This document shows positions 527 through 35,569 of a DNA stretch of 35,569 bases, in pieces (position 1 is the first letter of the stretch; each line of letters opens with the position of its first letter). The position numbers and the translations under genes were made by a program. The notes under the pieces were generated by a model, which was not told where the DNA came from, ran no database searches, and saw nothing but the letters and a program-made list of their open reading frames with translations. Location: the NCBI GenBank assembly GCA_009909005.1, contig JAAAOG010000085.1:1-35569 (forward strand). Direction: 5' to 3'. The DNA comes from Alphaproteobacteria bacterium (GTDB lineage: Bacteria > Pseudomonadota > Alphaproteobacteria > DSM-16000 > Inquilinaceae).

Positions 527-882
527 GCTCCACATCCTTGGGGAGCCACCAGCCGCCCCGCGCGACGGACAGGGCGGCGGCGCGTCATCCCGATCATCCG
601 GAAGCCGTCCTTTGTCGTCCGGTCACGGCGCGGCAATGGCGCTCGACAGCAAGCCTATTGCCTTCAAGGCTCCGGGCAGACCGGAACCCCGCCGCATCAC
701 CGTCCGACCGTCCCGGCCGGCTTCCTCGTTTGAATCCCTTTCGTCGCCGAGCGGACGCCTTTTCCAAAACGGTCGACCCGGATAAACCTGTCGCTGCTGC
801 GATCGTCCGTGGATGTCCCCACGGACCGATCTGAAATTCCGGGTCGCCGGTCGCACAGGAGAAAGACCGATCGGCATGTCGC
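527..882 (-). promoter_or_regulatory. Long 5' leader of rne with stem-loop
   Basis: About 355 bases separate the predicted transcription start (near 882) from the rne ATG, with no convincing gene in either strand. A strong hairpin lies at 801-831: arms 801-812 and 819-831 pair over 12 bp with one bulged C and a 6-base loop. In Escherichia coli, RNase E limits its own synthesis by cutting an approximately 360-base leader through a stem-loop. The similar length and a hairpin here suggest the same kind of feedback, but this is inference. The remainder, to the sixA stop at 1081, holds only the promoter. Confidence 0.5.
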
Positions 883-888
883 GCAATT

Positions 889-917
889 ACGATAGCTGCG
901 TGCGGCAAGCGCGACAA
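889..917 (-). promoter_or_regulatory. Putative sigma-70-type promoter of rne
   Basis: Read on the minus strand: -35 TTGTCG (912-917), 17-bp spacer, -10 TATCGT (889-894). Predicted start is near 882, giving a leader of about 355 bases. The spacing is ideal and the hexamers are moderate matches. It lies in the only non-coding stretch upstream of rne. Confidence 0.5.
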
Positions 918-1080
918 TCGCAGAATGTGCGATTAAGCGCCCGATTGTGACATTCTTTTTCCTGGGGCGAAAGCGTTCGTCTCCGTTGCAACCGATTACT
1001 GTCGCCGCACTGCGACATGTTTGCAGTCATGGGGCGCCGGGCCGGCCACTTCAAGGGCTGCCGTCTTTCGCACCGGCCTT

Positions 1081-1671
1081 TCAAACCAGATCCTTGGGCG
1101 TGGCATGGCAGACCAATGTGCCGGTGGCGTGGCCGATCCCGGCCCAGTGCGCCAGCGGCAGCTTGATCGCCGCAAAGGAGGCGGTGGGGAACTTCGCCTT
1201 CAGGCGGGCGAGCTGTTCGGCATCGCCGCGCCGGGCCAGCGTGGTCACCAGGTCGTGCAGGTCGGGGTTGTGGGCGACGAGCAGCACGGACCGGACGCCG
1301 TCATCCAAGGCCATCATCGCCCGCATCAGCTCCCGCTCGCCGTTCAGATAGAGCCGCGGGACGAATTCGACGGGGGGCATGACCGGCCATTGGCCGGCGG
1401 CCAGGGCCAGGGTCTGCCGGGCCCGGGCCGCGGTCGAGCACAGCACGATCTCGGGCAAAAAGCGCCGCTGGGCCATGAACCGGCCCATGACCAGCGCGGC
1501 CCGCTCGCCGCGCGGGTCCAGCGGACGGTCATGGTCGGGCAGCGCCGGCGACTCCCACGAGGACTTGGCATGCCGCAGCAGATAGAGGCTGCGCAAAGCC
1601 GGGGAGGGCTCCGGCAGGTCGGCGGGCAGCGTGGTCACGGGATCGGATCCGGTCATGGCGACAACCAGCAA
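1081..1671 (-). CDS. sixA: SixA-type phosphohistidine phosphatase (histidine phosphatase superfamily)
   Basis: A 196-residue cytoplasmic protein of the histidine phosphatase (phosphoglycerate-mutase-like) superfamily. The catalytic RHG-type motif appears as LYLLRHAKSSW near residues 29-39, with the phosphorylated His. A later VLLVAHNPDLHDL near residues 128-140 supplies the second catalytic His. This compact arrangement is typical of SixA, which removes phosphate from histidine phosphotransfer domains or from the nitrogen PTS protein NPr. The true substrate here is unknown. Translation could start at 1671 (MLVVAMTG) or at the inner ATG at 1656. The gene is divergent from ppk, with about 90 bases between them. 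Confidence 0.85.
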   Translation of the reverse strand: MLVVAMTGSDPVTTLPADLPEPSPALRSLYLLRHAKSSWESPALPDHDRPLDPRGERAALVMGRFMAQRRFLPEIVLCSTAARARQTLALAAGQWPVMPPVEFVPRLYLNGERELMRAMMALDDGVRSVLLVAHNPDLHDLVTTLARRGDAEQLARLKAKFPTASFAAIKLPLAHWAGIGHATGTLVCHATPKDLV

Positions 1672-1762
1672 AGCGGTCTATAAGGGGCGTTGTTAGCAGG
1701 CAGCGTCTCCGGGGGCACCGCGCCCGTGGCGTCGGGCCGGCCACGACATCAAGGACAGGGCC

Positions 1763-3928
1763 GTGAGCATCGCCGAACCGGAAGATTTCGCCCCCAGCGA
1801 TGCGGCAGTGATCGACCCCGCGTCGCCGCAACGCTTCATCAACCGCGAACTGTCCTGGCTGGCCTTCAATCAGCGGGTCCTGGACGAAGCCTATAACACG
1901 GCGCACCCACTATTGGAGCGGCTGCGGTTTTTGTCCATCTCGGCCAGCAACCTCGATGAATTCTACATGGTCCGCGTGGCCGGGTTGAAGGCCCAAGTCG
2001 CCCTGGGAGTCAAGAGCGCCAGCCAGGACGGGCTCACCCCGGCGCAGCAGCTGCAGGCCATTGCGTTGCGGGTGACCGAGCTGATGCGCGACCAGCAGGC
2101 CTGCTGGCGCCAGCTGCGCCAGTTGCTCAGGGATTCCGGGATCCTGGTGCTCGACCCGCGGGAGATTGACGAGGTCGACCGGCAATGGCTGGCGGAGACC
2201 TTCCAGCGCGACATTTTCCCCATCCTGACGCCGCTGGCCATCGATCCCGCCCACCCCTTCCCCTTCATCCCGAATCTCGGGCTCAGCCTCGCCATCCAGA
2301 TCCTGAACCGCGAGGAAGCGGTGGAGCGCAACGCCCTGGTGCCGCTGCCGCCGCAGCTGCCCCGCTTCATCCGCCTGCCCGGCGAGAATATCCGCTTCTG
2401 CCTGTTCGAGGTGGTGGTGCTGATGTTCCTCGACCGGCTGTTCCCCGGCTTCGAGGCCCAGGACCATGGCGTGTTCCGGGTGATTCGCGACAGTGAAATG
2501 GAGATCGACGAAGAAGCGGAAGACCTGGTCAAAACGTTCGAAAGCGCGCTCAAGCGGCGGCGGCGCGGCAGCGTCATCCGGTTGACCGTCGATGCCGACA
2601 TGCCCGCGCCGCTGCGGAATTTCGTCCGCAAGCAGCTCGCAGTGCCGGACGAGGACGTCTATCCGCTGGACGGGCTGATCGGCCTGGCCGACACCAAGGC
2701 CTGCGTCGTCGACGATCGGCCGGATCTGCTGTTCACGCCCTACAATCCGCGCTTTCCCGAGCGCATCCGCGATTTCGGGGGCGACAGCTTTGCCGCCATC
2801 CGGGCCAAGGACATCGTTGTCCATCATCCCTATGAGAGCTTCGACGTCGTCGTCCAGTTCCTGCAGCAGGCGGCCCAGGATCCGGACGTCGTCGCCATCA
2901 AGCAGACCATCTACCGCACCTCCAAGCACTCGCCGATCGTCGCGGCACTGATCGAGGCGGCGGAGGCCGGCAAGTCGGTGACGGCCATGGTGGAGCTCAA
3001 GGCCCGCTTCGACGAGGAGGCGAATATCCGCCAGGCCCGCGACCTGGAGCGGGCCGGCGCCCAGGTGGTCTACGGCTTCCTCAACCTGAAGACACACGCC
3101 AAGGTGTCGCTGGTGGTGCGGCGGGAAATCGGCGGCCTCGGCACCTATGTCCACTTCGGCACCGGCAATTATCATCCGATCACGGCAAAGATTTACACCG
3201 ACCTCAGCTTCTTCACCTGCGATCCCGGGCTCTGCCACGACGCGGCGGTGATCTTCAATTATATGACCGGTTACGCCACCCCGAACCGGATGGAGAAGCT
3301 GGCCATTGCGCCGCTGCATCTGCGGGCGGTGCTGCTGGAGGGCATCGACCGCGAGATCGCCCACGCCAGGGAAGGCCGGCCGGGGCAGATTTGGGCCAAG
3401 ATGAACTCGCTGGTCGACGGTGATATCATCGACGCGCTTTACCGGGCCTCGCAGGCGGGGGTGGAGATCGACCTGGTGGTCCGCGGCATCTGCTGCCTCA
3501 GGCCCGGCCTGCCCGGCCTGTCGGAGAATATCCGCGTCAAGAGCATTGTCGGGCGTTTCCTGGAGCACTCGCGTATCATCATCTTCGCCGACGGTGAGAG
3601 GCTGCCCTCGGCCAGGGCGGCCGTCTACATCTCCTCGGCCGACTGGATGCCGCGCAATCTCGACACCCGCATCGAAAGCCTGGTGCCGATCGAGAACCCG
3701 ACCGTCCGCCGCCAGGTGATGGAGCAGATCATGGTCGCCAATCTCAAGGACGAGACCAGCAGCTGGCTCCTGGCCGGCGACGGCAATTACGAAAGACTGG
3801 CCGCCAGGCCCGGTGCCTTCAGCGCCCATCAATACTTCATGACCAATCCCAGCCTGTCCGGGCGCGGCAGCGCCTCCGACCAGGGTACGGAGGCGCCCGA
3901 TCTGATGCCCCCGGCCATCGATTCCTGA
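1763..3928 (+). CDS. ppk: Polyphosphate kinase 1
   Basis: PPK1 reversibly transfers the gamma-phosphate of ATP onto inorganic polyphosphate. The protein has 721 residues, the normal family length. Its N-terminal domain starts with [19 protein letters not shown] and continues with [15 protein letters not shown]. The two phospholipase-D-like catalytic domains follow. The autophosphorylated His is in [11 protein letters not shown] (His445) and the second active-site His is in [10 protein letters not shown] (His602). The start codon is GTG at 1763, preceded by a purine-rich AGGACAGGG about 2-10 bases upstream. No upstream ATG fits better. It is followed after 39 bases by ppx, so synthesis and degradation of polyphosphate are probably co-transcribed. 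Confidence 0.97.
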
Positions 3929-3967
3929 CGCGAAAGGGGCCGCGACCATGCCCGAAGGTCCGGGCCG

Positions 3968-5470
3968 ATGATCATGCCGCTGGAACGGGCGCGGGATGCC
4001 AGGCGGCTGGCCGTCATCGATGTCGGCTCCAACTCGATTCGGCTGGTCGTGTTCGACGAGCTGGGCCGCGCCCCGCTCTCCGTGTTCAACGAACGGGTGA
4101 TGTGCGGGCTCGGCCGGGAGCTGGCGCGGACCGGCCGCCTTCATGCGGGCGGGGTGAAGCTGGCGCTCGACAATCTTGCCCGCTTCACCCGGCTGCTGCA
4201 GGGCATGCATGTCGACCGGGTCGATGTGCTGGCCACGGCGGCGGTGCGCGAAGCGGAAGACGGCCCGTCTTTCGTCGACCAGGTCAAGCGTCGCTGCAAT
4301 CTCGACGTCACGGTCATCGACGGCACGGAAGAGGCGCGGCTCTCCGCCCTCGGCGTGTTGTCCGGGGCACCGGGAGCGGACGGCGTGGTCGGCGACCAGG
4401 GCGGCGGCTCGCTGGAACTGGTCGGGCTCGACCAGGGCCGCCTGCGCGATCAGGTCAGCCTGCCGCTCGGCCCCTTCCGGCTGATGGAGATCGATGGCGG
4501 GCGCGACGCGATGCGCGCCCATATTGCCCGGACGCTCGACGGGCAGCGCTGGCTGCAGGCCTGGCAAGGGCGGACGCTGTTTCCGGTCGGCGGCGCCTGG
4601 CGCACCCTGGCGCGCATCGACATGGACAATCGCGGCCACCCGCTGCACATCATCCAGAACTACACCGTCCGTCCCGACGACCTGGCCAATGTGGCGGGGC
4701 TGATCGCCCGCCAGGGCAAATCCTCGCTGGCCCGGATGGCGGCCGTCTCCAAGCGCCGGACCGAGACGCTGCCCTATGCCGCCATGGTGCTGGAAGCGCT
4801 GATCGCCCGGCTGCAGCCGCGCGACGTGGTGTTCTCGGCCTTCGGGCTGCGCGAAGGCCATCTTTACGACCTGCTCTCGGAAGACGACAAGGCGCTCGAC
4901 CCGCTGCTCGCCGCCTGCGCCGACATCGCCCGCCGGCTCGGCCGGTTCGGCCATGCCGAGCTGATCGCCGCCTGGACCGGTCCGCTGTTCGACGAGGGCG
5001 ATGCCCGTTTCGACCGGCTGCGCACGGCCGCCTGCCTGCTGAGCGACATTGCGTGGTCGGAACACCCGGATTACCGGGCCGAACATGCCCGCCTGAAGGC
5101 TCTGCGCCTGCCGATCGTCGGCATCGATCATCCCGGCCGGGCGCTGCTCGCCGCCGCGCTGGCGGTGCGCTATGGCGGTGCCCTGGGCGACAGCCAGACC
5201 GAACCCTCGCTCGCCCTGCTCGACGAAACGGAGCGCATCCGGGCCCATCGGCTGGGCCTGGCGCTCAGGCTTGCCCATACCCTGTCCGGCGGTGCGGCCG
5301 AGCTTCTGGAGCGCACGGCGCTGGTGCGCGACGGGGCGGAACTCTTGTTGACCCTGCCGCCCGACGAGGCGGCGCTATCGGGCCATGTCGTGCAGCGGCG
5401 GCTCAACGCCCTGGCATCGGCCTTTGGTGCCGTCGGGCGAATCACGGTGGACCCGCGCGGCCTCGTGTGA
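3968..5470 (+). CDS. ppx: Exopolyphosphatase / GppA-family phosphatase
   Basis: This ASKHA-fold enzyme of 500 residues releases orthophosphate from polyphosphate ends. Members of the family can also dephosphorylate pppGpp. Visible motifs are the first phosphate loop LAVIDVGSNSIRLVVF (about residues 14-29), ATAAVREAEDG (about 94-104), the catalytic-Glu region VIDGTEEARLSALG and the second phosphate loop VVGDQGGGSLELV (about 140-152). The C-terminal half resembles the HD-like second domain of long Ppx proteins. An alternative start is the ATG encoding Met3. It sits directly behind ppk. Because rsh is also in this window, a link between polyphosphate and the stringent response is plausible but not shown by the sequence. 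Confidence 0.93.
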   Translation: MIMPLERARDARRLAVIDVGSNSIRLVVFDELGRAPLSVFNERVMCGLGRELARTGRLHAGGVKLALDNLARFTRLLQGMHVDRVDVLATAAVREAEDGPSFVDQVKRRCNLDVTVIDGTEEARLSALGVLSGAPGADGVVGDQGGGSLELVGLDQGRLRDQVSLPLGPFRLMEIDGGRDAMRAHIARTLDGQRWLQAWQGRTLFPVGGAWRTLARIDMDNRGHPLHIIQNYTVRPDDLANVAGLIARQGKSSLARMAAVSKRRTETLPYAAMVLEALIARLQPRDVVFSAFGLREGHLYDLLSEDDKALDPLLAACADIARRLGRFGHAELIAAWTGPLFDEGDARFDRLRTAACLLSDIAWSEHPDYRAEHARLKALRLPIVGIDHPGRALLAAALAVRYGGALGDSQTEPSLALLDETERIRAHRLGLALRLAHTLSGGAAELLERTALVRDGAELLLTLPPDEAALSGHVVQRRLNALASAFGAVGRITVDPRGLV

Positions 5471-5559
5471 GTTCCCCTTTCCCCCGCCGCAGCGGGTTGT
5501 GGTACAGAAGCGGTGGCGCCGGTTGGCGCCCCGCTATCACGCCCGCAGGAGACCTCGCC

Positions 5560-5784
5560 ATGGCCACCAATGAAAGCCTGACAGAAATTCTCGACAAGGC
5601 CCATGAGACCGACGCGCTGAAGGATATTGCAAAGATGTCGCCGGCCGTGCTTCAGGGCGTTTCGGAGAACGACGCCAAGCTTCTGCAGGAGGCCTTCGGC
5701 ATCAAGACCGTCTCCGACATGGCCACCAACAAGTTCTTCCTCTGGGCCCAGGCCATCCACACCCTGGCGCAATACGAGAAGTAG
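5560..5784 (+). CDS. Small conserved protein, helix-hairpin-helix-like
   Basis: A 74-residue protein with a very good ribosome binding site (AGGAG at 5547-5551, 8 bases before the ATG). The sequence is helical and acidic at the start (MATNESLTEILDKAHETDAL). It then contains a segment, AVLQGVSENDAKLLQEAFGI followed by KTVSDMATNKFFLWAQAI, whose pattern resembles helix-hairpin-helix modules of the DUF4332 kind (Gly-Val/Ile, two helices, then KT-x-x-x-Met/Leu-Ala). No signal peptide, membrane segment or cysteine is present. It follows ppx by 89 bases and may be its last operon member. I do not recognise a defined function. A DNA- or protein-binding accessory role would be a guess from the fold alone. 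Confidence 0.75.
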   Translation: MATNESLTEILDKAHETDALKDIAKMSPAVLQGVSENDAKLLQEAFGIKTVSDMATNKFFLWAQAIHTLAQYEK

Positions 5785-5818
5785 ACGCCGGCGAGTCCGC
5801 ACGCGGCGGCCGGACGGC

Positions 5819-6517
5819 TCATTCGTGCCGGAGCACCCGGTCGACGAGCCAGTCGGCCCAGCCGCGCGACTGGAACTTCTCCCGGACCGTGTCCGGGTCG
5901 TAGACCGTGTCGACCCATTCCATGAAGCCGATCGGGGTGCGGGCGGCGTAGTCCCGGTATTGCACAAAGAAGAAGTCGAGAATGCCGGTCTTGGCGGCGC
6001 GGACATGGCCGTAGCGCAGGCTGAGCTGCCCCATCGCCTCCGCGACCGGGCGTCCCTCGTGCAGGATCAGATAGAGCGCGCTCATCAGACCGGCACGGTC
6101 GGCGCCGGATTTGCAATGCAGCAGGGCCGGATAGTCGATTGACCCAAAAATCTCGCTTGCGCCGTGAAGCTTGTCCTTGCGCGGCGTGTCCCGACTATTG
6201 AGCGAGAAATCGACCAGCGCCAGGCCGTGGCTCCGGCAGGCCTCCGCCTCCAGCCGATAGGAGCCGGTGTCGCTGGCGCCGCGCAGGTTCACGATCGTGC
6301 GGATCCCGGCCCGGGCGAAGCGGCGGATGTGATACGGCGCCGGCTGGCTGGCGCGCCAGAGCTCCGGCGTGACCCGGTGGCAATTGCTGTAGACCGCCCG
6401 GATGAAGCCGTGGTCGACGATGGCCTGGTCGAAATGGGCGAAGGCCGGCTGGGCCCAGCCGGGCAGGCGGTGCGCCGCCCGGTTGAGCCAGCGGCGGTGA
6501 TCGATATTAAGCTTCAT
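5819..6517 (-). CDS. Protein-tyrosine / dual-specificity phosphatase family protein
   Basis: A 232-residue cytoplasmic protein with the cysteine-phosphatase signature LLHCKSGADRAGLMSALY (about residues 132-149), which matches HC-x5-R with the catalytic Cys and Arg present. An upstream acidic loop region (VDFSLNSRDTP) may hold the general acid. The N-terminal part (NIDHRRWLNRAAHRLPGWAQ) and the WRASQPAP segment are typical of the bacterial tyrosine-phosphatase family often called DSPc/Y-phosphatase 3-like. Substrates of this family in alphaproteobacteria are poorly known. Lipid or sugar phosphates are as possible as phosphotyrosine. It converges on the small gene ending at 5784 and lies about 100 bases downstream of the anti-sigma gene on the same strand. 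Confidence 0.82.
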   Translation of the reverse strand: MKLNIDHRRWLNRAAHRLPGWAQPAFAHFDQAIVDHGFIRAVYSNCHRVTPELWRASQPAPYHIRRFARAGIRTIVNLRGASDTGSYRLEAEACRSHGLALVDFSLNSRDTPRKDKLHGASEIFGSIDYPALLHCKSGADRAGLMSALYLILHEGRPVAEAMGQLSLRYGHVRAAKTGILDFFFVQYRDYAARTPIGFMEWVDTVYDPDTVREKFQSRGWADWLVDRVLRHE

Positions 6518-8019: not shown

Positions 8020-9456
8020 ATGTCGAGAATTCTGAGATTGTGCGCCGTTGCGATGGTCCTTGTCCTTCTCCAGCACGAGGCCCCGCAAGACGGCAGGCTG
8101 ATCGGCCAGGCCCAGGCCGATGACGGCGACGGCGGCGGAGGAGACGGAGGCGACGGAGGCGACGGAGGCGACGGTGGGGATGGAGGAGATGGCGGCGACA
8201 ATGGCGGCGGCGACAATGGCGGCGGCGACAATGGTGACGGCGACAATGGCGACGATGATGGCGGCGGCGGACGGGACGCCCCTTCGGACGGCGGCGAGGG
8301 TCGGGGCGTGCGCGCCTCCAATGGCGGCTCCGGCGGCGGCGACCCTTTCGGGGCCGTCATCGACTTTCTGTTTGGAACGGAAGGCAGTGATTTCGTTGAG
8401 GACGAGCTCATCGCCGTGCGGCTGGCGGTCGCCGACCGGACGGCCCTCCTGAATGCCGGCTTCCGCGTTCTCCTGGAGCAGCCGCTGCCCGGCATCGGTG
8501 AGGTTCTGACTATTCTGGCCGTTCCGGCCGGCCTGGGAAGCGAGGAGGGGCTCGGCGTTGCCCGCGGCCTCGCCCCGGATGCCCTGATCGACCTCAATCA
8601 CCTTTATGCCGGCGGCGGGACAGGGTGCGCCGGCGAGGCCTGCTGGGGGGCCCGGCTGGTCGGGTTGACGCCCCTGCCGGCGACGGCCTGTGTGCGGGGT
8701 GCGCCGATCGCCGTCATCGACACGGCTGTCGAGTCAAGCCACCCGGCATTCGCCGGAGCCCGGATTGAGACCCGGAGTTTCCTGCGGCCGGCCACGCCGC
8801 CGGGGGCCTCTGCGCACGGGACCGCGATTGCCGCCCTGCTGGTCGGCACGGTGCATCCCGAAGCCCGGCCGCTTGCGCCCGGCGCATCGCTGCTGGCGGC
8901 CGAAGTCTTTGGTGCCGACGATGACGGCACGGTGCTGGCGGACGCGGCAGCCATCCTGCGGGCGATCGATTGGGCGATGACCAGGCGGGCCCGGGTCATC
9001 GCCCTCAGCCTGGCGGGGCCGCCCAACGCCTTGCTGCGGCTCGGGACGCAGCGCGCGGCGGCGCGGGCCAACCTGGTGGCCGCCGCCGGCAATGGCGGGC
9101 CGGGGGGCGAGCCGGCCTATCCCGCCGCCTGGCCGGAGGTGATGGCGGTCGCCGCTGTCGACCGGCGGATGCGTCCTTATCGTCGGGGCACCCGGGGAGA
9201 CTATGTCGAAATCGCCGCGCCCGGCGTGGACGTGCTGTCTGCCGGGGTCGGCGGTGGCCGGCAGGCCTGGACCGGCAGCAGCTTCGCCGTGCCGTTCGTG
9301 GCCGCGGCCTTGCTGCGCGCCCGGGCCGAGAGCGGCGGCGATCCGCAGGCTGCCCGGCAACGCCTGGCCCGCAGTGCTCGCGACCTCGGCGCGCCGGGAC
9401 GCGACCCCATCTTCGGCCATGGCCTGCTCAGCGATCCCGGAAATCGGTGCTGGTGA
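8020..9456 (+). CDS. Secreted subtilisin-like serine protease (S8) with Gly/Asp-rich N-terminal region
   Basis: The open frame extends further upstream, but the ATG at 8020 has a GGAGG 9 bases before it (8006-8010) and begins a signal peptide (MSRILRLCAVAMVLVLLQ, likely cut after AQA near residue 33). This gives 478 residues. Residues about 34-110 are a low-complexity Gly/Asp/Asn stretch. Next comes a segment of about 110 residues that may be a propeptide. The S8 domain carries Asp234 in AVIDTAVESSHPAF, His266 in SAHGTAIAALLVG and the nucleophile Ser421 in TGSSFAVPFVAA. The oxyanion Asn is probably that in AAAGNGGPGGE. The triad is intact, so it should be active outside the cytoplasm. Its position divergent from the ECF operon suggests it either degrades damaged envelope proteins or takes part in signalling. 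Confidence 0.9.
   Translation: MSRILRLCAVAMVLVLLQHEAPQDGRLIGQAQADDGDGGGGDGGDGGDGGDGGDGGDGGDNGGGDNGGGDNGDGDNGDDDGGGGRDAPSDGGEGRGVRASNGGSGGGDPFGAVIDFLFGTEGSDFVEDELIAVRLAVADRTALLNAGFRVLLEQPLPGIGEVLTILAVPAGLGSEEGLGVARGLAPDALIDLNHLYAGGGTGCAGEACWGARLVGLTPLPATACVRGAPIAVIDTAVESSHPAFAGARIETRSFLRPATPPGASAHGTAIAALLVGTVHPEARPLAPGASLLAAEVFGADDDGTVLADAAAILRAIDWAMTRRARVIALSLAGPPNALLRLGTQRAAARANLVAAAGNGGPGGEPAYPAAWPEVMAVAAVDRRMRPYRRGTRGDYVEIAAPGVDVLSAGVGGGRQAWTGSSFAVPFVAAALLRARAESGGDPQAARQRLARSARDLGAPGRDPIFGHGLLSDPGNRCW
8124..8277 (+). repeat. Tandem short repeats encoding the Gly/Asp/Asn-rich linker
   Basis: Within the protease gene, a 9-bp unit GGCGACGGA is repeated in tandem. It is followed by about three copies of a 15-bp unit resembling GGCGGCGACAATGGC and by degenerate versions. 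All keep frame and encode Gly-Asp-Gly and Gly-Gly-Asp-Asn repeats. Such repeats can change length by slippage. The many Asp/Asn residues could bind calcium after export, but there is no strict RTX nonapeptide. Confidence 0.8.
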
Positions 9457-31506: not shown

Positions 31507-32961
31507 TTGCCTGAAAGGATGCTCAAATTTGTCAAGACGGCGCGGGAAATGCCGGAAAAGCGGTCCGCCGACCAGCGCAGGCAGGACTGGCACGAGGTCT
31601 ATGCCGAATATGCCCGGGCCAAGGCGGAAGAGCAATCGGCGCGTTGCTCGCAATGCGGCGTGCCATTCTGCCAGGTGCATTGCCCGCTCCACAACAATAT
31701 CCCGGACTGGCTGAAGCTGACGGCCGAAGGCCGGCTGGAAGAGGCCTATGAGGTCTCCTCCGCCACCAACAACATGCCGGAGATCTGCGGGCGTATCTGT
31801 CCGCAGGACCGGCTTTGCGAAGGCAATTGCGTCATCGAGCAGTCGGGCCACGGGACCGTGACCATCGGTGCGGTGGAAAAGTACATCACAGACACGGCGT
31901 GGGACATGGGCTGGGTCAAGCCGGTGCAGCCCCGCCGCGAGCGGCATGAATCGATCGGCATTGTCGGCGCCGGGCCGGGCGGCATGGCAGCGGCCGAAGA
32001 GCTGCGCCGGCGCGGCTACAAGTGCCATGTCTATGACCGCTATGACCGCGTTGGCGGCCTGATGATCTATGGCATCCCGGAGTTCAAGCTGGAGAAATAT
32101 GTCGTCGAGCGGCGGGCCAAGCTGCTGGAGGATGCCGGAATCATCTTCCATCTGAACTGCGAGATCGGCCGCGACGTCACCTTCGCCGAGCTGCGGTCGC
32201 GCCATGATGCGGTGCTGGTCGCCACCGGCGTCTACAAGGCCCGCGACCTGATGGCGCCCGGCAGCGGCCTCGCCAATATCGTCCCGGCGATGGACTATCT
32301 CACCGCCTCGAACCGGACCTGCCTGGGCGATTCCGTCCCGGCCTTTGAGAGCGGCGCGCTGAATGCCGCCGGCAAGAATGTCGTGGTCATCGGCGGCGGC
32401 GACACCGCCATGGATTGCGTGCGCACCGCCGTGCGCCAGGGCGCCAAATCGGTGAAATGCCTCTACCGCCGCAATCGCGCCAACATGCCGGGCTCGCAGC
32501 GCGAGGTTGCCAATGCCGAGGAGGAGGGCGTCGAGTTCATCTGGCAGGCCGCGCCGGAAGCCTTCAACGGCGACGATGTCGTCACCGGCGTGCGGGCGGT
32601 GAAAATGCATCTGGGCACGCCCGATGCGACCGGCCGCCAGACCCCCAAGCCCATGCCGGGCTCGGATTTCACGCTGGACGCCGATCTGGTGATCAAGGCC
32701 CTGGGCTTCGATCCGGAGGATCTGCCGACCCTGTTCGACTCCGCCGACCTGCGGGTCACCCGCTGGGGCACGCTGCGCGTCGACTATCGCTCCTTCATGA
32801 CCAATCTCGACGGGGTCTTCGCGGCCGGCGACATCGTCCGCGGCGCCTCGCTGGTGGTCTGGGCGGTCCGCGACGGGCGCGATGCGGCAGCCGCCATTCA
32901 CAAGTTCCTGCAGGACCGGGCCGCCGCCCAGACATCGGCGCCGGCCGTGGCCGCCGAATAG
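31507..32961 (+). CDS. gltD: Glutamate synthase (NADPH) small subunit
   Basis: GltD oxidises NADPH and passes electrons through FAD and 4Fe-4S clusters to GltB for glutamate synthesis from glutamine and 2-oxoglutarate. The protein has 484 residues. Cluster cysteines are in RCSQCGVPFCQVHCPLHNNI and ICGRICPQDRLCEGNC. The FAD site is IGIVGAGPGGMAAAEELRRR and the NADPH site is VVVIGGGDTAMDCVRTAV. The TTG at 31507 is chosen as start because AAAGGAG lies 8 bases before it. The first ATG (31519) would be too far from that site and would shorten the usual MPERMLKF start. The partner gltB begins 2 kb downstream behind two unrelated genes. Confidence 0.96.
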   Translation: MPERMLKFVKTAREMPEKRSADQRRQDWHEVYAEYARAKAEEQSARCSQCGVPFCQVHCPLHNNIPDWLKLTAEGRLEEAYEVSSATNNMPEICGRICPQDRLCEGNCVIEQSGHGTVTIGAVEKYITDTAWDMGWVKPVQPRRERHESIGIVGAGPGGMAAAEELRRRGYKCHVYDRYDRVGGLMIYGIPEFKLEKYVVERRAKLLEDAGIIFHLNCEIGRDVTFAELRSRHDAVLVATGVYKARDLMAPGSGLANIVPAMDYLTASNRTCLGDSVPAFESGALNAAGKNVVVIGGGDTAMDCVRTAVRQGAKSVKCLYRRNRANMPGSQREVANAEEEGVEFIWQAAPEAFNGDDVVTGVRAVKMHLGTPDATGRQTPKPMPGSDFTLDADLVIKALGFDPEDLPTLFDSADLRVTRWGTLRVDYRSFMTNLDGVFAAGDIVRGASLVVWAVRDGRDAAAAIHKFLQDRAAAQTSAPAVAAE

Positions 32962-32968
32962 GCCGCCC

Positions 32969-34129
32969 ATGGCCGAAACGAGCCTGGAAAAGCCGCCGGT
33001 CCGCCTTTGGATCGAGACCCGCGACAGCTTCGCCGACGAACTCGCCGATTTCGGTGAGGCCGTAACGGCAAGCCGCCGCGGTCATGACCGGAGCCCGGCC
33101 GAAAAGGAAGCGTACTGCCTGAGGGCCTATCTGGTCGCCGCCAGGCTCGCCGGGACCCTCGTGTTTCCGGTGATTGTCCATGCATCGGAACAGAGAGATC
33201 AGCAGGCGGGCTGGCCGGATTTCGTGCTCGAAACCGGTAACACATTGCGGGGCGTCGAGATCTCGGAAGCCGGTAGTCCGGATTTCCAGAAGTGGGTCAC
33301 GAAAGCCCATGACGAGCCAAGAGCGGTACCGTTCCCCGATGATCGCGGGCACCAGGGCGACCGGCCTGAAAGAATGGCGTTGGACGACATCGTCAAGGGC
33401 GTTGAAAAGAAACAGCAGGAGCTGGCCAAACAAAGTTATCGCCAGGTCGCTGATTGCGAACTGCTTGTCTACGTAATGTCCGAGGGTTGGGTCCTTGCCG
33501 ACAAAGAGAAGGTCGCGAACAGGCTGCAGACCGAGCTTGGCCGGTTCATCGATGATACAAATCTCTTGTTATTCAGACACATACACATTGTTTCCGACTC
33601 TCTGGTGATCCTTGATGCCGGCGGCCCCGAGCAGAGAGCCGTACGCACGGAAAAAGCCTACGAAATGGACTATTCGGACTGGGCTCTAGAGCAGGCAGCA
33701 TTGGCTCGGGATGAAAAGGTCAACAGACTGGATCTCTGGAATATTGCAGGGGAACTGGAAGCCTTGAGCAAGAAGGACCGGAGATCCCGTGACAGTCATC
33801 TGAGAAATCTGCTTATGCATTTGCTCAAATATGCCTATCAGCCGGAAAAACGAAGCGGCAGCTGGAAGACCTCTATCCGCAATGCCCGGACCGAGATTTG
33901 GAAGATTTCGAACGATAGCCCAAGTCTGAGCCTTTTAAAGCAGCGATCGGAGGATGCTCTGGGGGTTCTGTCCTGGGAATATGATCGTGCGCGTCAGAAC
34001 TGCCTTGACGAAACGAGGTTATCCGCCGATCAGGTGCCGGTTGTTTGCCCGTTCACTCTGGAGCAGATACTGGACGAGGATTTCTGGCCGGAACCGTCTG
34101 CCGGCCCTGAAACCGATCCGCCGTCGTGA
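32969..34129 (+). CDS. DUF29-domain protein with an unknown, possibly nuclease-like N-terminal domain
   Basis: A 386-residue cytoplasmic protein starting at ATG 32969, 7 bases after the gltD stop, with no strong ribosome binding site. Residues about 232-378 are a DUF29 domain (DYSDWALEQAALARDEKVNR, LLMHLLKYAYQPEKRSGSWK, CPFTLEQILDEDFWPE), a family of unknown function, usually alone and about 150 residues long. The first 230 residues are not recognised. They contain WPDFVLETGNTLRGVEISEA (Asp84, Glu97, Glu100), a spacing reminiscent of PD-(D/E)xK nucleases, although the Lys is replaced by Ser. Base composition drops strongly (for example 24 of 60 G/C at 33541-33600), unlike both neighbours, pointing to horizontal acquisition. 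The stop overlaps a GTG of the next gene. Confidence 0.8.
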   Translation: MAETSLEKPPVRLWIETRDSFADELADFGEAVTASRRGHDRSPAEKEAYCLRAYLVAARLAGTLVFPVIVHASEQRDQQAGWPDFVLETGNTLRGVEISEAGSPDFQKWVTKAHDEPRAVPFPDDRGHQGDRPERMALDDIVKGVEKKQQELAKQSYRQVADCELLVYVMSEGWVLADKEKVANRLQTELGRFIDDTNLLLFRHIHIVSDSLVILDAGGPEQRAVRTEKAYEMDYSDWALEQAALARDEKVNRLDLWNIAGELEALSKKDRRSRDSHLRNLLMHLLKYAYQPEKRSGSWKTSIRNARTEIWKISNDSPSLSLLKQRSEDALGVLSWEYDRARQNCLDETRLSADQVPVVCPFTLEQILDEDFWPEPSAGPETDPPS

Positions 34130-34143
34130 GGACATTGCCACCC

Positions 34144-34980
34144 ATGCGCCTCAGCGACCGCGACATCGCCGCCATCACCGACACCGCCGCCGCGCTGTTC
34201 GGGGGCTCGGCGACCGTGCGCCTGTTCGGCAGCCGGCTGCATGACGACCTGAAAGGCGGCGATATCGACCTCTATGTCGAGGTGGATGCCGGCCAGGGCG
34301 GTGCCGGGCGGACGGAGAGGTTTCGCGATCGGCTGGCAGAAAGCCTGGGGGTCGACGCGCCGCTCGACGTGCTGGTGCACGAGCGCGGGCGACCCTTGCG
34401 CCCGATCGAACACCTCGCGGCGGAGACCGGCGTCGTCCTCGGATCGGACGGCGGCCCGGAAGAGCCGCGCCAGCCCGCAGGAGCGGCCGGCATGACCCCG
34501 GCATACCACAATGCGGCACTGCTCGCGGAAGCGCTTGAGATGTCCGCGCGCAATCTCGAGCAACTGACCTGGCTGCGGCCACGGTTGGCCGATCTGCTCC
34601 CGCTTTCGGCGGCCACGATGGCGAGCCTGTCGCGCGACCGGCTGATCGAGATCGACGCGTTTCTGAAACGTTTCGAGAATGCCCAGGACATTATGCAGCG
34701 CCGCCTGTTCCGGGCGGTACTGATGGCCGAGGGCGAGGCGGTGCGCGGCCAGCCTTCGGCAGAAATCGCCGAGCGGCTTGTGACCCGCGGCGCTCTGGGC
34801 GATGCCGCGCCGTGGAAGGCGCTGGCCGAATTGCGCAACCGCCTGAGCCATGATTATCCGCTGGATCCGGCTGTCCAGGCCGAGCGGGTGAACCAAGTCG
34901 ATGGGGCGATCCCGATCCTGGTCGCCACCCTGGACGAGGTGCGGGCCTATGTCGGCCGCGCCGGGCTTTTGACCGCTTAA
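34144..34980 (+). CDS. Fused MntA-like nucleotidyltransferase and HepT-like HEPN ribonuclease
   Basis: A 278-residue protein from ATG 34144 (AGGA 11 bases upstream). The GTG at 34126 overlapping the previous stop is an alternative. Residues 1-95 are a minimal nucleotidyltransferase with FGSRLHDDLKGGDIDLYVEV (Gly29-Ser30, Asp40, Asp42) and Asp75 in APLDVLVH, a complete catalytic set. Residues about 117-278 are a HEPN domain ending in LRNRLSHDYPLD (Arg231, His236, Tyr238), an exact R-x4-H-x-Y motif. In known MntA/HepT systems these are two proteins, and MntA inactivates the HepT RNase by AMPylating that Tyr. Here they form one chain. An AGGAG (34479-34483) 8 bases before an in-frame ATG (34492) at the domain boundary could also give a free HEPN protein. 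Confidence 0.88.
   Translation: MRLSDRDIAAITDTAAALFGGSATVRLFGSRLHDDLKGGDIDLYVEVDAGQGGAGRTERFRDRLAESLGVDAPLDVLVHERGRPLRPIEHLAAETGVVLGSDGGPEEPRQPAGAAGMTPAYHNAALLAEALEMSARNLEQLTWLRPRLADLLPLSAATMASLSRDRLIEIDAFLKRFENAQDIMQRRLFRAVLMAEGEAVRGQPSAEIAERLVTRGALGDAAPWKALAELRNRLSHDYPLDPAVQAERVNQVDGAIPILVATLDEVRAYVGRAGLLTA

Positions 34981-35013: not shown

Positions 35014-35569
<556 letters not shown>

Follow-up and report, generated by a model that had tools for sequence, protein, structure and literature searches.

A predicted PD-(D/E)xK nuclease-like domain fused to DUF29 and carried mainly in the glutamate synthase operon

We analyzed a window of 35,569 nucleotides of alphaproteobacterial DNA and found, between the two glutamate synthase genes gltD and gltB, a gene for a two-domain protein in which a predicted nuclease-like domain of an unclassified family (here referred to as the N-domain) precedes a DUF29 domain (Table 1). 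The ATG of this fusion gene lies 7 nt past the gltD stop. The protein would be a metal-dependent nuclease of the PD-(D/E)xK type, using E47, D84, E97 and, in place of the motif III lysine, K148, and the C-terminal helical DUF29 would most likely control or target it. The gene may be an accessory one of the conflict type, serving in phage defence or as an analogous toxic nuclease; carriage within a core operon would give it steady expression with gltD and gltB, and it would take no part in glutamate synthesis. For this reading as a whole, an operon-embedded conflict or defence nuclease under DUF29 control, we put the probability at about 0.5.

Table 1. Features of the window and loci compared with it (coordinates refer to the window).
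Feature	Coordinates	Strand	Basis
gltD, small subunit of glutamate synthase, next gene upstream of the fusion	31507..32961	+	Fer4_20 + Pyr_redox_2; 75–79% identity to the order's best gltD
Fusion gene, 386 aa, PD-(D/E)xK-like domain + DUF29	32969..34129	+	ORF, Pfam
Residues 1–219, predicted restriction-endonuclease-like domain, unclassified family	32969..33625	+	AlphaFold2 models, VIA-align, homologues
E47 codon, motif I candidate, helix 43–60	33107..33109	+	invariant 11/11
P83-D84 codons, motif II candidate	33215..33220	+	invariant 11/11
E97 codon, motif III acidic residue	33257..33259	+	invariant 11/11
K148 codon, candidate shifted catalytic lysine, helix 132–154	33410..33412	+	invariant 11/11
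DUF29 domain, residues 231–373	33659..34087	+	PF01724 E 3.9e-35; 3fcn match
Putative MNT nucleotidyltransferase-HepT fusion (alternative ATG 34144)	34126..34980	+	sub-threshold Pfam, motifs by eye
gltB, large subunit of glutamate synthase, cut off by the window's end	35014..35569	+	tblastn to neighbours' gltB
Fusion loci: window; VGEV01000004 (L010/L016); CAJWQN010000116 (L011/L017); VGEJ01000049 (L012/L020)			
Further fusion loci: Stella (now Allostella) vacuolata AP019702 (L018); gammaproteobacterial MAG JAPPIX010000209 (L019)			
gltD–gltB gaps of 660–891 nt with other genes: L022, L023, L026, L028, L034, L035			

The first-pass annotation had described a DUF29 domain fused to a large unnamed N-terminal domain, and this is borne out. 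The C-terminal part belongs to DUF29 by its Pfam score, since the match to PF01724 reaches 121.5 bits against a gathering cut-off of 22.5 and spans profile positions 2–138 of 138. This full-length domain is also recovered in the structural comparison, where the DUF29 structure 3fcn (Rhodospirillum rubrum) tops the list for this part of the full-length model (Z 10.6, rmsd 4.5, 122 aligned residues). No other Pfam family passed its curated cut-off in the fusion protein, and residues 1–219 gave neither an above-cut-off Pfam match nor an NCBIfam or PADLOC match at E ≤ 1. Moreover, no family of PADLOC-DB 2.0.0 matched the fusion protein at E ≤ 1, nor any of the four stand-alone relatives of its N-domain that were searched. 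The N-domain family is uncatalogued in Pfam, NCBIfam and PADLOC, while the fold class itself is well known. To our knowledge, DUF29 is an abundant domain without known function, and a whole-word search of the papers available found neither DUF29 nor PF01724.

The gene is also poorer in GC than its neighbours, as had been claimed. Its GC is 0.569 (0.591 in the N-terminal and 0.542 in the C-terminal part), compared with 0.664 for gltD and 0.690 for the gene downstream of the fusion, and the corresponding GC3 values are 0.656, 0.852 and 0.818. Recent transfer may or may not suffice as the explanation of the low GC: low GC3 is common to all six fusion copies found in this study (0.64–0.76, against 0.845–0.924 for gltD of the four loci in glt operons), and in the window's genome other DUF29 genes, too, frequently have a lower GC than the DNA around them.

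We then predicted the fold of the N-domain from two AlphaFold2 models, one of the full-length protein (mean pLDDT 73.3) and one of the N-domain alone (mean pLDDT 70.7, pTM 0.72). In both models a helix (43–60) and three strands (68–72, 85–89 and 92–101) form the early elements; the later predicted elements are helices at about 104–115 and at 132–154, a strand (162–169), a helix (179–197) and a last strand ending at residue 209. The models were compared with solved structures by VIA-align, whose Z of 3.5–7.4 is a range where matches can be a mere common arrangement. Among the 50 entries listed for the N-domain alone, 15 are acetyl-CoA carboxylase, and the titles of 16 of the 35 others say nuclease, nickase or resolvase. 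The best single-domain match is 1y0k, PA4535 of Pseudomonas aeruginosa (Z 7.4, rmsd 3.5, 135 aligned), which we take to be restriction-endonuclease-like in SCOP; in the full-length model it reaches Z 8.9. PaqCI (Z 6.4, rmsd 3.7, 133 aligned), FokI (Z 4.2, rmsd 4.8, 130 aligned) and Shedu (Z 4.1–5.0, rmsd 4.6–4.8, 143 aligned; for 8ps5, Z 5.0 and rmsd 4.6) were also matched. SduA, XisH, SfsA, HerA-DUF and Cap4 are likewise among the entries listed, and presumably all five have the restriction-endonuclease fold.

These resemblances lie at the level of the fold. PA4535, a protein of unknown function without DUF29, is 13% identical to the N-domain, and a search of the papers available for PA4535 together with nuclease found nothing. 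The nuclease domain of Shedu (SduA) is 8% identical, and no PADLOC profile matches the fusion protein. Foldseek returned no match at E ≤ 0.001 for the models, and nothing credible came from the sequences of solved structures searched with N-domain profiles. Because the Foldseek E-values are poor, the fold assignment rests on the topology, on the nucleases among the structural matches and, most of all, on the residues described below. The order of elements predicted in the two models and the VIA-align company, at moderate Z, fit the PD-(D/E)xK superfamily. The earlier guess at such a fold is thus supported by structure prediction, by structural comparison and by a conserved set of E, PD, E and K, and we consider it highly probable that the N-domain has a restriction-endonuclease core. 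Acetyl-CoA carboxylase domains score as well as nucleases (Z 9.1 with the N-domain part of the full-length model, 7.3 with the domain alone). The central domain of the eukaryotic enzyme resembles the N-domain at Z 7–9 and an rmsd of about 4, and it possibly shares a fold with this nuclease-like domain at a distance.

The residues were examined in an alignment of 11 N-domains including that of the window, six of them fused and five stand-alone, which are 20–37% identical to the window's sequence. The columns invariant in all 11 are M1, E47, L55, P67, P83, D84, E97, A101, K148 and L165, and the charged ones among them are E47, D84, E97 and K148 only. In the models, the first core helix contains E47 and the third strand E97; D84 marks the beginning of the second core strand, and K148 belongs to the helix that follows the third strand. 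The pattern PD-x12-E-x2-E, pointed out in the first-pass annotation, is present as P83-D84, twelve residues, E97, two residues and E100; P83, D84 and E97 are invariant, whereas E100 varies and is serine in Allostella. Thus the motif I acid, the PD of motif II and the motif III acid of the superfamily were all found. The lysine of motif III (E-x-K) was not, position 99 being serine in the window and S, T, I or V among the relatives, and the invariant K148 stands in the following helix instead. PMC1913061 describes such a variation for DUF1626 and the related DUF506 and DUF790, where the motif III lysine is replaced (often by threonine in DUF1626) and a conserved basic residue is found in the next helix. 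Since the shift to K148 matches this published variation, we claim the N-domain as a variant of the superfamily and not as a canonical member. It differs from those three families in that it has no above-cut-off Pfam match, is fused to DUF29 and has one single invariant lysine.

The suggestion that the nuclease is degenerate is therefore not supported; the N-domain probably has a variant, active PD-(D/E)xK site and would cut DNA or RNA. An inactive scaffold, that is, a former nuclease domain which now only binds, would account for the missing canonical lysine and for the return of a non-nuclease, the central domain of acetyl-CoA carboxylase, by the fold search. We regard it as improbable, as four charged residues that are invariant in 11 of 11 sequences at 20–37% identity are hard to explain without catalysis, and the lysine shift has a precedent in the families of PMC1913061.

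The fusion is rare. A single-sequence search of 385 genomes sampled from the class matched the N-domain in four, including the window's, and a profile search found the same four and one stand-alone relative in genome G216 (E 4.7e-12); four weak short matches in this sample (E 0.019–0.047) were dropped. The window was the sole match in a phylum sample of 398 genomes, and 84,980 species genomes scanned with a four-row profile yielded five loci, three of which were already in the class sample. As a result, we obtained six fusion loci in total (Table 1). DUF29 follows the N-domain in all six, and the other copies are 34–39% identical to the window protein. Neither plasmids, phages nor viral contigs contained an N-domain relative when the window sequence was the query, and viral contigs contained none with the fusion profile. 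In the VGEV01000004 copy DUF29 is split over two frames (L010, G082:C4:19524-19924), by a frameshift due either to decay or to an assembly error.

The fusion DUF29 is the genome's sole DUF29 match in four of the five other fusion genomes, and in the fifth, VGEV, the split gene accounts for both matches. A tree was built with 16 stand-alone DUF29 proteins, all sampled from the window's genome; one branch (support 97/94) sets the six fusion DUF29 domains apart from them, and the fusion N-domains are likewise separated from the five stand-alone relatives (support 100/99). This placement of both domains fits a single fusion, and the fusion apparently has one origin.

Four of the six fusion genes, those of the window, CAJWQN010000116, VGEJ01000049 and Allostella, lie between gltD and gltB. 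In VGEJ01000049 and in Allostella the end of the fusion gene shares 4 nt with the start of gltB (in Allostella, gltB start at 9056 by tblastn, fusion gene end at 9059). In CAJWQN010000116 the overlap is 8 nt (determined by eye), and in the window the MNT-HepT-like gene separates the fusion gene from gltB. No defence gene was noticed in the flanks read at these four loci. The VGEV copy adjoins uppP and an MscS-like gene (named by eye), and the gammaproteobacterial copy adjoins an AbiEii/DUF6036-like nucleotidyltransferase and an AAA ATPase, the latter recognized by eye. Within the window's order the fusion gene is present in one of 17 genomes, the window's own. We inspected the gltD–gltB gap in 15 of the remaining 16 genomes, leaving out G009, whose gltD is split across contigs: it is empty in nine (14–80 nt) and holds genes in six (Table 1). 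Judged by eye, five of these six carry a gene resembling glutathione-S-transferase and the sixth a different small gene. The gap is thus an insertion slot whose content varies within the order, and this speaks against a role specific to glutamate. A search of the papers available, combining glutamate synthase genes with defence and nuclease, gave nothing that looked relevant.

This position might point to a regulator of the glt operon, a nuclease or nucleic-acid binder modulating glutamate synthase expression, for example by mRNA processing, and the exact placement between gltD and gltB in four loci, with the stop overlapping gltB in three, speaks for it. It is nevertheless unlikely in view of the presence of the gene in only one of 17 genomes, the empty or otherwise occupied slot in the others, the two copies that lie elsewhere and the other DUF29 genes of the genome, which sit in other core operons.

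For the preferred reading, a conflict or defence nuclease, the stand-alone relatives of the N-domain are informative. They were reached only through the G216 protein, which matched plasmids of Shewanella, Massilia, Pseudomonas, Cupriavidus and Dyella (5 of 72,556 records, some partial); an alignment of the stand-alone relatives in addition matched one IMG/VR contig. The Cupriavidus match is partial, unannotated and not among the six loci considered here, and the partial Dyella protein was left out of the alignments. The relationship to the fusion holds in both directions: hhalign joined the stand-alone and fusion profiles over 189 columns (98.6%, E 1e-15) with E47, P83, D84, E97 and K148 aligned, and the stand-alone profile in turn found the window gene as sole match in a sample of 398 genomes (E 8.1e-6).

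The stand-alone relatives are mostly on mobile DNA. AbiD (6.8e-57) and SieB lie near the Shewanella gene; PDC-S39 (2.2e-166), integrases and a P4-type primase near that of Massilia; an Hp3 match (4.4e-23) and an integrase near that of Pseudomonas; and a SIR2 protein (ThsA profile, 3.1e-30) and SRAP near that of the viral contig. No defence name occurs among the Dyella neighbours, two of which were scanned without a match, and no defence match was seen among the G216 neighbours, which were read by eye. A defence-profile match within 5 kb was thus found in four of six stand-alone loci, a raw count without a baseline, from neighbours scanned in part. On the viral contig (L053, IMGVR_UViG_3300046523_000288, 765-6252) the nuclease-like gene, the SRAP gene and a SIR2/ThsA-like protein of 908 aa stand side by side.

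The proposal that the fusion is a defence or conflict gene therefore stands in part: its stand-alone relatives on plasmids and a viral contig, near defence-profile genes, favour it, and the location of four of six fusion loci in the glt operon speaks against it. Homologues confined to housekeeping contexts had been named as evidence to the contrary, and this is half true of the fusion itself: those four loci are in the gltD–gltB operon, but the slot is variable. The step to defence rests on the contexts of the relatives and on the low GC, and we hold a defence role of the fusion to be about as probable as its opposite.

The neighbour called a toxin-antitoxin fusion is plausible as such by its motifs, though weaker than stated, as both Pfam matches are below their cut-offs (HepT-like 19.3 bits against 23.5; NTP_transf_2 16.7 against 21). 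By eye we see what we take to be the MNT-type GS..DxD and HEPN/HepT RX4HxY motifs. In one gltD–gltB gap of the order (L028) a fragment of an MNT-gene relative lies beside the transferase gene, without the fusion gene, so adjacency to a toxin-antitoxin gene argues only weakly for a conflict role.

The window's genome contains 28 DUF29 matches. One DUF29 gene lies between sufB and sufC (G000:C160:8693-9103, L060; sufC was named by eye on an ABC_tran match), three follow a cysD-like gene and precede cysNC, the latter named by eye (G000:C52:3212-4559, L048, L066), and another is found in the order recO, DUF29, next gene (G000:C64, L057). Six tandem DUF29 genes, about 467 nt apart, are found behind a histidine kinase (G000:C215:2087-4853, L047). 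In 7 of 13 loci DUF29 starts 2–45 nt behind a coding gene of the same strand, which is a raw count without a baseline of ordinary spacing.

According to PMC10327210, Rpn toxic nucleases likewise have a helical C-terminal domain behind a PD-(D/E)xK domain, are horizontally spread and include RpnP2, for which phage defence was shown. By analogy the fusion could be an intragenic toxin-antitoxin gene, with the DUF29 part also translated alone and blocking the nuclease; the layout shared with the Rpn proteins, and the abundance of stand-alone DUF29 genes in the window's genome, would agree with this. We consider it very unlikely: a sequence scan for internal starts ahead of DUF29 revealed none that is conserved and has a Shine-Dalgarno-like site; one of the six loci has such a start, at a linker position that is not shared. 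In contrast to Rpn, therefore, the C-terminal part has no shared internal start, and it belongs to a different family.

The gltD of the window is 75–79% identical to its best matches in its own order and 68–71% to those of the other inserted loci, the gltB start follows the same trend, this comparison of identities revealed no co-conversion of the glt flanks, and the gltD backbone looks vertically inherited. A homing-like selfish gene, whose PD-(D/E)xK domain would cut uninserted gltD–gltB junctions and spread by repair, is hence the least probable of these readings: the occupation of one slot by four distant lineages and a patchy presence (1/17, 1/9 and 1/2 genomes of three orders) would suit it, but the flanks show no sign of having travelled along, identities of 34–39% to the window protein are far from recent spread and two of the six copies lie elsewhere.

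In the operon-embedded conflict nuclease proposed here, DUF29 would be the part that controls or targets the nuclease. A wider and quite doubtful extension is that DUF29 in general is the control module, an inhibitor or sensor, of conflict systems parked inside core operons, such as the suf, cys and glt operons of this genome, with the glt fusion showing the effector; if true, a nuclease would be armed or restrained through the host's use of an essential operon. The analysis adds a nuclease-like family with a shifted-lysine site, whose members stand alone on plasmids and on a viral contig and form part of a fusion in chromosomes. The fusion is also the first lead known to us on what DUF29 might work with, and it makes the role of DUF29 directly testable.
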